Source of the DNA: Leptolyngbya subtilissima AS-A7
GTDB lineage: Bacteria; Cyanobacteriota; Cyanobacteriia; Phormidesmidales; Phormidesmidaceae
Direction: 5' to 3'
Length of the DNA: 64,000 nt
Assembly: GCF_039962255.1 (NCBI RefSeq)
Contig: NZ_JAMPKY010000009.1
Span: 248,001-312,000 of the forward strand
Part shown: positions 4,490-9,469 of the stretch, in pieces
Layout: each line of letters opens with the position of its first letter
How positions within the stretch are numbered: position 1 is the first letter of the stretch
The notes under the pieces: generated by a model
The model's database searches: none
What the model saw: only the letters and a program-made list of their open reading frames with translations
Told to the model about the DNA's origin: nothing
Position numbers and translations under genes: made by a program

Positions 4490-5668
4490 CTAACCCAAAC
4501 GCCTTGCTACGAACGCTTCTAGCCGATCCATACCTTCCAAAATGGTCTCCATGTCGGTGGCGTAGGAAAGGCGAATGGTGCCTTCAGCACCGAAGGCAAT
4601 CCCTGGAATGGCCGCTACGTATTTTTCGTCGAGTAGTGCGGTGCAAAAATCGAGGGAGGAAACACCGAGGGCACTGATGTCGATACAGAGGTAGAAAGCC
4701 CCCTCGGGCTCACCGCAGTTCAAGCCATTGATGGTTCGACACCGTTCAATAATGGCTTGCCGTCGCTCGGCAAAAGCGCGGCCCATAGTGGCAATGCAGT
4801 CTTGGGGGCCTTCGAGGGCGGCGATCGCCCCGTACTGAGCAAAGGTGCACACGTTCGACGTACTGTGGCTCTGTATAGTAGCTACCGCCTTGATCAGCTC
4901 CGCTGACCCAGCTAGGTAGCCCACCCGCCAGCCGGTCATTGAATAGGCTTTGGCGAACCCGTTGCTAATAATAGTGTGCTCAAAGGCCTCGGGCGACACA
5001 GCCCCAATGCTAAGGTGAGTCGCCCCGTCGTAGAGAATTTTTTCGTAGATTTCGTCTGACACCACCCAGATGTCGGCCTCGACCACTACCGCCGCCAGAG
5101 CCGCAATTTCAGCGGGGGAGTAGACCATCCCCGTGGGGTTAGAGGGGGAGTTAAGAATAAACAGCTTGGTCTGTGGAGTAATTGCCTGGCGCAGCTGCTC
5201 GGGGGTAATGCGGTAGTTTTGTTCAGCGGTAGTGGGCACAATGACCGGCGTGCCCCCAGCTAGCTTCACCATCTCAGGGTAGCTCAGCCAGTAGGGGGCC
5301 GGAATAATCACCTCGTCGCCGGGTTCGATCAGGGCCATCATCAGGCCAGAGAGCGAATGCTTGCCGCCGTTGGTGACGATGACGTTCTCGGGGCCGTAGC
5401 AGAGGCCGTTGTCCTGCTGAAGTTTTTGGGCGATCGCCTGGCGCAGGGCTGGTTCGCCCGCTGCTGGACCGTAGCGAGTTTTGCCCGCATCGAGGGCAGC
5501 CTTGGCCGCCGCCTTGATGTGGTCGGGGGTATCAAAATCGGGTTCGCCAGCGCTAAAGCTGCACACCGGCAGGCCTTCGGCCTTCATTGCTTTGGCCCGG
5601 GCCGCAATGGCCAGAGTCATCGACGGAGTGACGCAGGTTACACGGTTTGCCAGGGCTAATCGGGGCAC
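4490..5668 (-). CDS. Aspartate aminotransferase, PLP class I
   Basis: This is a fold-type I PLP aminotransferase of the bacterial AspAT subgroup. Visible are [16 protein letters not shown], a pyrimidine-phosphate loop ([11 protein letters not shown]), [26 protein letters not shown], and the PLP lysine segment [20 protein letters not shown] (Lys at AKAYSMTG). It transfers the amino group between aspartate and 2-oxoglutarate, and related enzymes also handle prephenate. The GTG start at 5668 is preferred over the upstream ATG at 5689 because GGAGG lies exactly 7 bases ahead of it and the protein then has the family length (393 residues). A 17-bp palindrome lies 67 bases upstream. Confidence 0.92.
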
Positions 5669-5734
5669 GGCCAGACCTCCAACGAACATTGGCTATCGGC
5701 TTCCCCGGAACGATGGTTCGTTGGGCCTCTAACC

Positions 5735-5751
5735 GGAATGTATTACATTCC
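5735..5751. promoter_or_regulatory. Perfect 17-bp palindrome, operator candidate
   Basis: GGAATGTATTACATTCC is an 8-bp perfect inverted repeat around one central base. It lies 67-83 bases upstream of the aminotransferase start, a usual distance for an operator. It does not fit the NtcA (GTA-N8-TAC) or cyanobacterial LexA consensus, so the binding protein is unknown. Confidence 0.4.
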
Positions 5752-6040
5752 CCATAGATTAGATCGTTTGGTCGGTTCTGACCATTGCAACCCGGGTTTT
5801 TTCTGCCGTTGCGATCGCCCTTCATGGTGGGATGTTGACCGCCGCTGCTGCTTCCTGCCCTAGAAATAGGCTGCGGTTACACCTTTTATTGCCTGCCTAA
5901 GAGCTTTTGGGGCTTATCTCGGAGCCTCAAACCCTCCGATAGAATCAACGTGGACTGGACGACAGACTGCTTAGAACAGAACAAGATTGTGCTGGGGATT
6001 ACTAAATTTTAGAAATCCGCAGATTTACGCATAAAGATTT

Positions 6041-6071
6041 TCCTGACTAAGGAGGGATGGGTTTGTAACTA
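6041..6071 (+). promoter_or_regulatory. DIF1-like promoter candidate upstream of patX
   Basis: TCCTGA at 6041-6046 differs by one base from the DIF1 element TCCGGA and is followed 19 bases later by TAACTA at 6066-6071 as a possible -10. It starts 61 bases before the patX ATG. Published work on patX (Elhai and Khudyakov 2018) reports a DIF1 motif within 69 bases upstream of all instances of the gene, so the position fits. The one mismatch and the weak -10 keep confidence low. Confidence 0.4.
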
Positions 6072-6101
6072 GGACTAGAAGCGCTAACAAGGCCACGTCC
6101 T

Positions 6102-6419
6102 ATGCACTCTTCCTCCCTCTGTTCTCTGATGACTCATCTGGCCTGCGCCGCTAGCCTGGGCCTGGTTATTGCTACTGCCGCGCCCATGGGCCTGGCTACC
6201 GGGCTCGGAGCTAGTTCCGAAACTACCCTGCGCACAGCAGTGCGGGCTGAGGACGATCGCGGCAGCGGTCGGCTCAGCCGAGTACCTGCGATCGCAAGCT
6301 GGCTCAGCTTTCGGGGCAGTGGTCGGGTTGATCCCACCCCTCCTCAGCCTTCCTTCGGCAGTGAGCACCCCGTTGCCTATCGCGGCAGTGGCAGAATTAC
6401 CAAGACTCGCACTACCTAG
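6102..6419 (+). CDS. patX: PatX-like RGSGR peptide precursor with three pentapeptide copies
   Basis: A 105-residue protein with a hydrophobic N-terminal stretch (about residues 9-35, LACAASLGLVIATAAPMGLA, with small residues suited to signal cleavage). Three exact RGSGR pentapeptides follow, at residues 53-57, 71-75 and 94-98. RGSGR is the HetR-binding pentapeptide of the heterocyst inhibitor PatS. PatX is the wider family defined by a hydrophobic N-terminus plus RGSGR and found together with HetR in filamentous cyanobacteria. Spacers between copies are Pro/Ser-rich, as expected of a processed precursor. Inference: the peptide is exported or processed and modulates HetR, encoded 347 bases downstream on the same strand. 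A second ATG at codon 10 is an alternative start. The reverse-strand frame over this region is a shadow. Confidence 0.88.
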   Translation: MHSSSLCSLMTHLACAASLGLVIATAAPMGLATGLGASSETTLRTAVRAEDDRGSGRLSRVPAIASWLSFRGSGRVDPTPPQPSFGSEHPVAYRGSGRITKTRTT

Positions 6420-6502
6420 TTTTCCTTAGCTTCTACCGATCTAGGGGTGGCTAGGTGGTGCACTAGGTTCATACTGCTCTGCTTCACAGACTAGATGAAT
6501 TT

Positions 6503-6532
6503 AACCTGCAATAAAGGTCAATTTTGCAGGTT
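6503..6532 (+). terminator. 9-bp inverted repeat after patX (weak terminator or operator)
   Basis: AACCTGCAA at 6503-6511 pairs perfectly with TTGCAGGTT at 6524-6532 across a 12-nt loop, followed by TTGAG. It lies 84 bases after the patX stop. The stem is modest and the T-tract short, so it could end patX transcription or be a protein-binding site upstream of hetR. Confidence 0.4.
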
Positions 6533-6575
6533 TTGAGTCACACTTAAACGTAATCAGGTGTAACTTTTATGGCTG

Positions 6576-6588
6576 ACGGCTGAGCCGT
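6576..6588. promoter_or_regulatory. 13-bp palindrome upstream of hetR
   Basis: ACGGCT-G-AGCCGT is a perfect 6-bp inverted repeat around one base, about 180 bases before the hetR start. HetR is a dimer that binds inverted repeats and autoregulates in Anabaena, so this is a candidate site. It does not obviously match the published hetP-promoter site. Confidence 0.25.
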
Positions 6589-6751
6589 TGACCCTCGTCA
6601 AAGCTTTAAATAATCAAACTATTTATATCGCCTTTTCCGTGGTGCATCTTCTTGCAGAGCCTTTAGATTAAGCTGTATTTGCTATTTCTGACAATTTTCA
6701 GCGGTTTTGCCCCCTTAGCAGCGTGGGTCGCGATACCGCCTGTTGTTCTGA

Positions 6752-7705
<954 letters not shown>

Positions 7706-7786: not shown

Positions 7787-9193
7787 TCATACCGAGCGTC
7801 GTCGTACCGCGCGGCCAAAGCTAGGTAGCTCGACGGCAGCAATGGAGGTGATCTTTTTCTGCGATCGCAGTGGATGGACTAGGGGCGACGGTGAAGCTTT
7901 GGGGGCGGACACTGGATAGCTGTAGCTAGGCTGGGCAGGAGCCGCTGGCTGGCTAGGGCCGGGTGCAGGTGCTGTGGGCTGCTGAGTTCGCACCGGTTCT
8001 GCGGGTAGAGCGGTGGCAGAGGGGTTAGGCATTGGGGTGGGCTGCGATGCCGCAGCGACGGGCTCTCCCCAAGGCGATGGCTCTGTAAATAGAGATGCTG
8101 CCTCTAAAGCGGTAGTTGTTGCGGGTTGGTCAATCGTCTCCAGCCAGGGATCGAGGGCGGCAGGTGCGGGTTTGGGGTTAGCCAAGGGCGGTGGGTCCGC
8201 AGAAACTGTCGGTAAGGGCTCAGGGGCGATCGCCACGCTCGGCTCAGGCGATGGCAAGAAATCGGGCTGGACTGCTGCCGGAGCCGGTACTGAGCTCGGT
8301 CCGGCGCTGCGCAGTCCCCGCAGTAGGTGGGTCAGGCTAGGATTATCCGTGACGCTGCCCTGACCGGCTGACCAAGGCTGGATCTGCTGCGATCGCGGCA
8401 TGGCAACAGGCTGGCTCACGTCCTCAAGGACGGTGGGGCTCAGCAGCTGCCCCTGCATCACAGTCGAGCTGGGGACGGCCGAGCCGGCGGCCGGAGTCAT
8501 ATTCAAACACTTCTCCAGCGCCGCTTTGAACTGGAGGGTGTAGCGCTGCTGACGATGCAGGCGCGCCTTGAGATCGCGGCAGGTTTCTTCAGCCTGGTGC
8601 AGGGCGGTATTTTTTTCACCGAAGCGCTGCTGCAGGAGGGTGCACTCTCGCTCGAGCTGGGCGACCCGCTGCTGGTTTGACTCCAGCTCGGCCTGGAGGG
8701 TTTCGTTGTGAATCGTAGTGCGGCGCAGACCATCGTTGGCAACGTCAAGCTCGCTGAGGAGCTGAGCAATCTGCTGCTGCACCGGGCCGGGGGTAGCTCC
8801 TAAAGGAAGACTGCCCGGTATAGTTTGGGTGCGCTCGATCTCAGCCTGAAGGGCCACCTGCGATCGCTCTAGAGCTTCCTCGAGCTCAGTGACGCGCAGC
8901 AGGAGGGCATCGTTGCACTGGTTGAGATCTTGAATCAGCTGCACCAGATCTTCTGGGGCAGGCTCGGCGGGTGGTGTGGCCTCTACTAGGCTCTCTTCCG
9001 CAGTTGGCGAAGACAAACCATAGACCTCAGCCAGCTCAACGGCATGGTCTAAGGGCAGCTGACCAGGAAAGGTGACTGCCTCCCACTCGTTGCCAGCCGG
9101 GGGGAAAGGCTGGTCTAGAGCTTCCTCGGAGTTGTACCGCGAAGGGTTACCCTGGGGCTCTGGGGAAGCGCTTGAAGCCGTAGTGTCAGTCAT
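7787..9193 (-). CDS. Coiled-coil protein with proline/alanine-rich C-terminus, function unknown
   Basis: About 468 residues. The N-terminal 80 residues are acidic and disordered. About residues 80-235 form a long heptad-rich coiled coil (LIQDLNQCNDALLLRVTELEEAL, then VAQLERECTLLQQRF and further leucine heptads). The rest is low-complexity Pro/Ala/Ser sequence ending in a short basic segment (ELPSFGRAVRRRSV). There is no signal peptide or membrane helix. I do not recognise the family. The composition suggests a scaffold or filament-associated protein. It converges on hetR across a hairpin. The ATG at 9193 is preferred to the TTG at 9238. Confidence 0.75.
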   Translation of the reverse strand: MTDTTASSASPEPQGNPSRYNSEEALDQPFPPAGNEWEAVTFPGQLPLDHAVELAEVYGLSSPTAEESLVEATPPAEPAPEDLVQLIQDLNQCNDALLLRVTELEEALERSQVALQAEIERTQTIPGSLPLGATPGPVQQQIAQLLSELDVANDGLRRTTIHNETLQAELESNQQRVAQLERECTLLQQRFGEKNTALHQAEETCRDLKARLHRQQRYTLQFKAALEKCLNMTPAAGSAVPSSTVMQGQLLSPTVLEDVSQPVAMPRSQQIQPWSAGQGSVTDNPSLTHLLRGLRSAGPSSVPAPAAVQPDFLPSPEPSVAIAPEPLPTVSADPPPLANPKPAPAALDPWLETIDQPATTTALEAASLFTEPSPWGEPVAAASQPTPMPNPSATALPAEPVRTQQPTAPAPGPSQPAAPAQPSYSYPVSAPKASPSPLVHPLRSQKKITSIAAVELPSFGRAVRRRSV

Positions 9194-9469
9194 AAGGTTG
9201 CCTGATCCTGGTCGCGTAGTCTCACATTGAACACTCAACCACTAAGGGGGCTGTTGACCCCTAAGAGTAGCTAATTTTGCCAGTTTATTCACTTTTTTAT
9301 TGACTCTTCAATTACAACATGTCTTTTTATGACTTCAGTTTATCCTTTACCTACGCTTTTTCTTTTATCCCTAGAGTTAGAGCCGGGTAAAAATGCTGCT
9401 TTGCTTGCTCTGAATGCACCGCCAAGGCTGTATTCCCTCTGCTAGCGTCGCCCCTTTGAGCAACTACTA

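Follow-up and report, generated by a model that had tools for sequence, protein, structure and literature searches.

A PatX-type gene with three RGSGR copies before hetR in Leptolyngbya subtilissima AS-A7, and its multi-copy relatives

The patX-hetR locus

The DNA analysed here, called the window, is a stretch of 64,000 nucleotides from the genome of Leptolyngbya subtilissima AS-A7 (5.66 Mb, 18 contigs). Its features around hetR are collected in Table 1. The frame at 6102-6419 is a PatX-type gene, and this identity, already given in the original prediction, fits the three separately constrained motif copies, the position before hetR and the conserved promoter block. Translation confirmed the three RGSGR copies (residues 53-57, 71-75 and 94-98) and the pairs after them (LS, VD and IT, respectively), and hetR does lie downstream on the same strand, with 347 bases from the patX stop codon to the hetR start. 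Only 33 bases separate the upstream in-frame stop from the patX ATG, without any other start codon in between.

Table 1 Features of the patX-hetR locus (positions in the window)
Feature	Position	Strand	Description and basis
TCCTGA	6041..6046	+	One base off the DIF1 motif TCCGGA; 61 bases before the patX start codon; probable promoter element
TTTGTAACTAGGACTAGAAGCGCT	6062..6085	+	Latter half of the conserved promoter block, separated from TTTCCTGACT by 13 bases; sequence conservation
patX-type gene	6102..6419	+	Three RGSGR copies, 105 aa; translation, orthologues, selection
Hydrophobic stretch	6138..6182	+	Residues 13-27, possible Sec signal core; hydropathy window
RGSGR copy 1	6258..6272	+	Residues 53-57, context D-RGSGR-L; five codons all vary, residues invariant (16 orthologues), pS 0.317, pN 0
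RGSGR copy 2	6312..6326	+	Residues 71-75, context F-RGSGR-V; invariant (16 orthologues), pS 0.386, pN 0
RGSGR copy 3	6381..6395	+	Residues 94-98, context Y-RGSGR-I; invariant (16 orthologues), pS 0.483
hetR	6767..7705	+	Presumed receptor; NF009718, solved HetR, site check

These three motifs are the only occurrences of RG[ST]GR in the window (69,873 residues in six-frame stop-to-stop stretches of at least 40 aa). At this composition 0.0025 occurrences are expected per 105 aa, and the probability of three or more is about 2.6e-9; when the patX protein was shuffled 200,000 times, one motif appeared in 472 shuffles and two in none. As an opposite-strand control, 158 hetR-upstream regions were searched on the other strand, of which 157 were motif-free and one held one motif. 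Composition statistics, shuffles and this control together ruled out an origin of the three motifs by chance or artefact.

The predicted hydrophobic N-terminus was recovered in part: residues 13-27 form the best 15-residue hydropathy window (mean 2.1), but no Lys or Arg stands ahead of this core. A signal peptide at the N-terminus of PatX is plausible from this profile, and the precursor is likely disordered. The Pfam and NCBIfam models gave no match to the protein at E<=1. A scan of viral contigs with this single protein returned 17 pattern matches, none of them a relative, and no phage match was obtained by tblastn.

The downstream frame scores 511.5 bits against NF009718 (cut-off 489) and E 2.6e-148 against PDB 3qod, and by these matches 6767-7705 is a genuine full HetR. 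By HetR, the genome is closest, among named relatives, to strains that bear the labels Nodosilinea, Leptolyngbya and Phormidium. The pair is bordered on the opposite strand by an aminotransferase gene (4490-5689) and by a gene without match above any curated cut-off (7787-9238). A second HetR-like gene of the same genome (contig C7:157570-158451; L112, L233) reaches 353.7 bits, below the curated cut-off; its product carries E254V with unchanged DNA-contact residues, and no RG[ST]GR frame was found in the 1.57 kb upstream of it. Similar second hetR-like copies were found across the family.

The promoter region

All 16 Nodosilinea-type rows carry the whole block, i.e. TTTCCTGACT, 13 bases and TTTGTAACTAGGACTAGAAGCGCT, without a single change, and the composite pattern occurs once in the genome of AS-A7. 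TCCTGA was found at most 90 bases before the start in all 36 patX upstreams considered (between -58 and -63 in 35 of them, at -42 in the other), a set that includes 12 single-copy upstreams from named loci as well as more distant multi-copy ones, and the strict DIF1 hexamer TCCGGA in none of the 36 within the same distance. A looser scan, which reached into the coding part, retrieved TCC[TG]GA in 131 of 132 rows, the exception being G210. Elhai and Khudyakov reportedly described in 2018 a DIF1 motif within 69 nt upstream of patX. In Anabaena, DIF1 (TCCGGA) drives patS, patX and hetR (PMC7377430). TCCTGA in the non-heterocystous-type patX upstreams could be a lineage form of the DIF1 element.

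No sigma-70 promoter or intrinsic terminator was detected by scan in 5690-6800, and no Rfam element in 5600-6900. The patX-hetR gap of 16 genomes holds no shared TCC[TG]GA (DIF1-type) or GGGN5CCC site, with one stray match each in L015 and L011. An inverted repeat was spotted by eye at 6503-6532.

Selection on the motif copies

Selection was assessed on an alignment of 16 Nodosilinea-type orthologues (the window and L002-L016). All 15 motif residues are invariant, and more than one codon is used at each of these 15 positions; the pN of 0.010 obtained for copy 3 is a product of the counted codon paths, the residues themselves not varying. Pooled pN/pS is 0.009 in the motifs and 0.042 in the nine flanking positions, against values of 0.54-0.56 for residues 1-24, for residues 25-50, for the linkers and for the tail. 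None of the three copies is more relaxed than the others, and each is constrained separately. The expectation of multiple peptides per precursor would fit these separate constraints, together with the two to nine copies present in relatives.

Copy number among relatives

RGSGR copy number was compared across relatives, as the original prediction had proposed, using 158 rows, each covering about 1.6 kb upstream of hetR (shorter at contig ends), with genomes identified by family and genus codes. Rows outside the family of AS-A7 (f1) were drawn among the matches listed, and families with weak hetR scores are under-sampled. G236 and G071 were placed by PatX profile rather than by hetR. The second-hetR regions L115, L117 and L156 and that of AS-A7 itself (L233), none of which carries an RG[ST]GR motif, were dropped before the count, as was L144 (408 bases, contig edge); family genomes outside the count are G365, G176 and G383, in which hetR gave no match, and G281, whose hetR is truncated by its contig.

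A patX-type frame lies beside hetR in 132 of the 158 rows (those outside f1 being among the matches listed), 'none' standing for no such frame in the roughly 1.6 kb and not for absence of patX from the genome. A profile of the 16 sequences retrieved patX in all 26 genomes examined in the genus, with three copies in 21, four in two, five in one and two in two; one counted three-copy row (L101) is cut by the contig inside the array, and copy numbers from draft genomes may be too low. Within f1 (59 rows), 0, 1, 2, 3, 4, 5, 6 and 9 copies were counted in 3, 4, 6, 27, 12, 4, 1 and 2 rows, respectively, so that 52 of the 59 carry two to nine copies; the six-copy precursor belongs to a genome where hetR was not found. 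Family f15 (40 rows, among the matches listed) comprises 34 single-copy rows, two with none and one row each with two, three, five and eight copies. The remaining 59 rows, from 20 further family codes and again among the matches listed, gave 38 single-copy frames, 21 with none and no multi-copy patX beside hetR. When the profile was run across the class, against 388 genomes (E<=0.01), it added few candidates outside the family; this search missed known arrays, e.g. those of G155 and G347, and so cannot show absence. The three-copy arrangement singled out initially is real but not peculiar to this gene: every one of the 26 genus genomes examined is multi-copy, as are 52 of the 59 family rows. 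Multi-copy patX is a lineage trait.

Gain and loss of repeat units

The longest arrays are near-perfect tandem DNA repeats. Two f1/g9 genomes carry nine units, of which the first seven repeat a 36-base stretch of the DRGSGRITNTQA kind with hardly any change in the DNA; the unit that differs most between the two genomes is unit 6. G183 (f15/g108) has eight units, in which Y or H precedes the motif. Four f15/g54 genomes hold 5, 3, 2 and 1 copies, the single copy (L238) having a decayed RGSDR alongside. Tandem duplication evidently accounts for the gain and loss of units.

An unrooted tree of one gene, HetR, with 65 rows (42 multi-copy) implies at least five changes of copy state; it leaves out L022, L024, L063, L071 and L077, which repeat kept rows, and L021, L029 and L061, which do not. 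The f15 expansion sits inside a well-supported single-copy group of this tree and thus most simply arose separately.

Arrays were also observed away from hetR or at contig ends. G156 (f15/g97) has a single-copy gene at hetR and a second gene elsewhere (L295, C4 from about 66493), which carries RGSGR and RASGR three times each and has a true TCCGGA beginning 83 bases before its start; RASGR may be a variant or a decaying signal. L294 (G059, f11/g24, C252 from about 51935) is a four-copy RGTGR array away from hetR, without DIF1-type motif in the 110 bases upstream. The arrays of L101 and L017 are broken at contig edges and both show 15-residue near-identical repeats (FRGSGRIGTDSDVLA); the two perhaps belong to the same genome. 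Counts of repeat units in draft genomes may be too low.

Flanking residues and receptor residues

Among the 16 orthologues, the two residues ahead of each copy do not vary (DD, SF and AY for copies 1, 2 and 3). Directly behind the copies stand L/F, V/I/L and I; the next position is S/T/R for copy 1, D for copy 2 (15 of the 16 sequences) and T/V/A for copy 3. As to the idea that flanking residues might set specificity, the immediate neighbours are conserved on both sides, but the pairs LS, VD and IT, read as specificity codes, only partly so. That idea had also considered the downstream side only, and the residue before the motif matters through its main-chain amino group (PMC4649674). In the HetR-PatS6 structure that group is what the preceding residue contributes, its side chain being without effect on affinity (PMC4649674).

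In multi-copy genes (rows outside f1 being among the matches listed), I, V or L follows the motif in 184 of 203 copies; the residue before it, among the matches listed, is Y in 78, D in 52, H in 28, F in 24, W in 11, E in 6, N in 3 and I in 1. In the 76 single-copy genes among the matches listed, H stands before the motif in 58, and what follows is R in 27, the protein end in 13 and I/V/L in 24. Because the following residues differ in this way, the release step may differ between multi-copy and single-copy forms.

HetR of the window retains R223, E253, E254, D256, D270 and D278 (Anabaena numbering). In Anabaena HetR, E253, E254, D256, D270 and D278 contact PatS6, R223W loses the response, and E254A weakens the peptide Kd from 12 to 91 nM (PMC4649674). 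The six residues are complete in 103 of 120 aligned HetR sequences, an alignment that includes the Anabaena reference, the HetR of the window and the second HetR of AS-A7, whose site set is incomplete. Position 254 is S in five of five f1/g9 sequences (4-9 PatX copies); seven f15 sequences, with 1-8 copies, have A or T there. Several lineages with single-copy PatX lack E254 as well (L239, L240, L280, L283, L287), and E254 is retained beside 2-5 copies; by these counts its loss is neither sufficient nor necessary for high copy number. In f1/g4, D256N and D278N occur together in three of three HetR examined, and PatX has 1-2 copies in six of six rows. We regard these associations between receptor residues and copy number as leads. 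The f1/g4 loci L259-L261 carry D256N/D278N at peptide-contact sites, and a degenerate RGGGR was seen in L139.

Of the 33 single-copy rows compared, 27 have E254, and 24 of these show H before the motif; none of the six rows lacking E254 does. On the tree this pattern comes down to three supported independent pairs (p 0.25), and the wider set contains Y, N or Q before the motif despite E254, and H within an E254A array. Co-variation of the preceding residue with HetR 254 would thus be a lead.

Comparison with known systems

PatX of Nostoc/Anabaena PCC 7120 is likewise a small protein with RG[ST]GR; its hydrophobic N-terminus and DIF1-type promoter may have counterparts in the hydrophobic stretch and the TCCTGA of the window gene. 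It has one RGTGR in 56 aa where the window PatX has three RGSGR in 105 aa, its promoter has TCCGGA instead of TCCTGA, other residues stand before and after its motif, and the host of the window is, unlike PCC 7120, not known to form heterocysts. PatS and HetN also carry the RGSGR that binds HetR (PMC4649674, PMC7761841). Unlike the window PatX, PatS is a peptide of 13-17 aa with one motif at its end, and HetN resembles an enzyme and contains a single, internal motif. Tandem peptide-hormone precursors such as yeast alpha-factor are secreted and hold a short peptide several times over, separated by spacers. The likeness of the window PatX to them is an analogy only; we claim no homology.

Leptolyngbya sp. 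BL0902 shares the genus code of AS-A7, and its patX (L104; GFS31_32390 by position) encodes three RGSGR directly before the best of its three hetR-like genes; the residues before the motifs are D/I/Y in BL0902 and D/F/Y in the window. Deletion of hetR, of patX and of both in BL0902 altered 993, 428 and 477 genes, respectively, and the authors judged the effects of the patX deletion basically independent of HetR and termed the role of PatX in non-heterocystous filaments a mystery (PMC11298460). The available part of that paper makes no mention of the patX copy number.

PatX itself is known. In the parts of the literature searched, no PatX is described as having more than one RGSGR; Elhai and Khudyakov 2018, outside this search, may describe one, and an earlier mention of the multi-copy form is possible. 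What is added here is the extent of 2-9 copies, the selection on each copy, the TCCTGA promoter form, the recognition that the patX already deleted in BL0902 has three copies, and a probable second origin of multi-copy PatX.

Proposed mode of action and alternatives

We consider it fairly probable that the gene encodes an exported pro-peptide of a multi-copy PatX type, with its own DIF1-like promoter, giving several HetR-inhibiting peptides per molecule. Transcription would proceed from the TCCTGA promoter, whose block is conserved, and the hydrophobic N-terminus would lead the product through Sec to the periplasm, as reported for Nostoc PatX. Proteases would then cut the variable linkers and release several XRGSGR per molecule (DRGSGR, FRGSGR, YRGSGR), each of which would bind the HetR hood cleft, where the contact residues are present, and remove HetR from DNA in the same or neighbouring cells. 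Copy number would act as a dose setting, moved up or down through tandem duplication and loss of the unit. We favour this reading because each motif copy is held (pN/pS 0.009) and its flanks nearly so (0.042) while the rest drifts (0.54-0.56), because the promoter block is conserved and HetR keeps all six PatS6-response residues, because all 26 genus genomes examined and 52 of the 59 family rows have two to nine copies, the long arrays being tandem-repeat DNA, and because PatX of Nostoc is reportedly exported and trimmed by PatP to the HetR inhibitor HRGTGR (PMC12756182).

The strongest counter-argument comes from three-copy BL0902, where the patX deletion acted basically independently of HetR (PMC11298460). 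The exported motif must also return to cytosolic HetR, no basic residue precedes the putative signal core, and I/V/L follows 184 of 203 multi-copy motifs against R or the protein end in 40 of 76 single-copy ones (among the matches listed), so that release may not proceed as in Nostoc. An unlikely alternative built on the BL0902 result is that PatX works mainly outside the HetR circuit in non-heterocystous lineages, e.g. as an exported multivalent RGSGR protein acting at the cell envelope, its linkage to HetR being a matter of descent and not of function. In the same deletions (993, 428 and 477 genes), the double mutant resembled the patX mutant in the two groups where patX opposed hetR (PMC11298460), and the PatX concerned has three copies in the very strain with HetR-independent effects. 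Yet the linkers drift around an unchanged motif, the gene stands before hetR, the HetR contact residues are kept, and f1/g4 combines D256N/D278N (three of three) with copies down to 1-2 (six of six), as if motif and receptor were paired.

The copies could also be different signals for different receivers, the second HetR-like protein (C7, E254V; 353.7 bits, below the curated cut-off) reading hexapeptides differently. The position-specific D, F and Y, invariant in 16 orthologues, would agree with this, as would H before the motif in 24 of 27 single-copy rows with E254 and none of six without; but the latter pattern amounts to three independent pairs (p 0.25) with exceptions both ways in the wider set, and the side chain before the motif is without effect on affinity (PMC4649674), and we consider such a division of signals very unlikely. 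Highly improbable in our judgement is that one working copy is enough and the extra ones are neutral by-products of repeat slippage. Copy number does shift within genera (5, 3, 2 and 1 in f15/g54), RGSDR has decayed beside the single copy of L238, and the long arrays are near-identical DNA repeats, but all three copies are protein-invariant over varying codons with none more relaxed in the 16 orthologues, and at least two copies persist in 26 of 26 genus genomes.

The pro-peptide reading can be extended to polyprotein-style precursors that arose, most simply, in at least two lineages, the number of HetR-binding peptides per molecule (1-9) evolving as a means to set the dose in keeping with the receptor. 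We put this forward tentatively, as possible though doubtful, because the largest arrays beside hetR (eight and nine units) fall in two of those lineages in which HetR has lost E254.

Significance

In related bacteria, RGSGR is known as a five-residue signal that turns HetR off, and the multi-copy form before hetR suggests, as far as sequences can tell, a repeat-packaged peptide signal. BL0902 is a tractable strain with a three-copy patX and existing deletions, already in use. Natural precursors with 1, 2, 3, 4, 5, 8 and 9 copies beside hetR form a ready series for work on dose, release or affinity. If the pro-peptide reading is true, they would give an example from bacteria of a peptide signal encoded as repeats.
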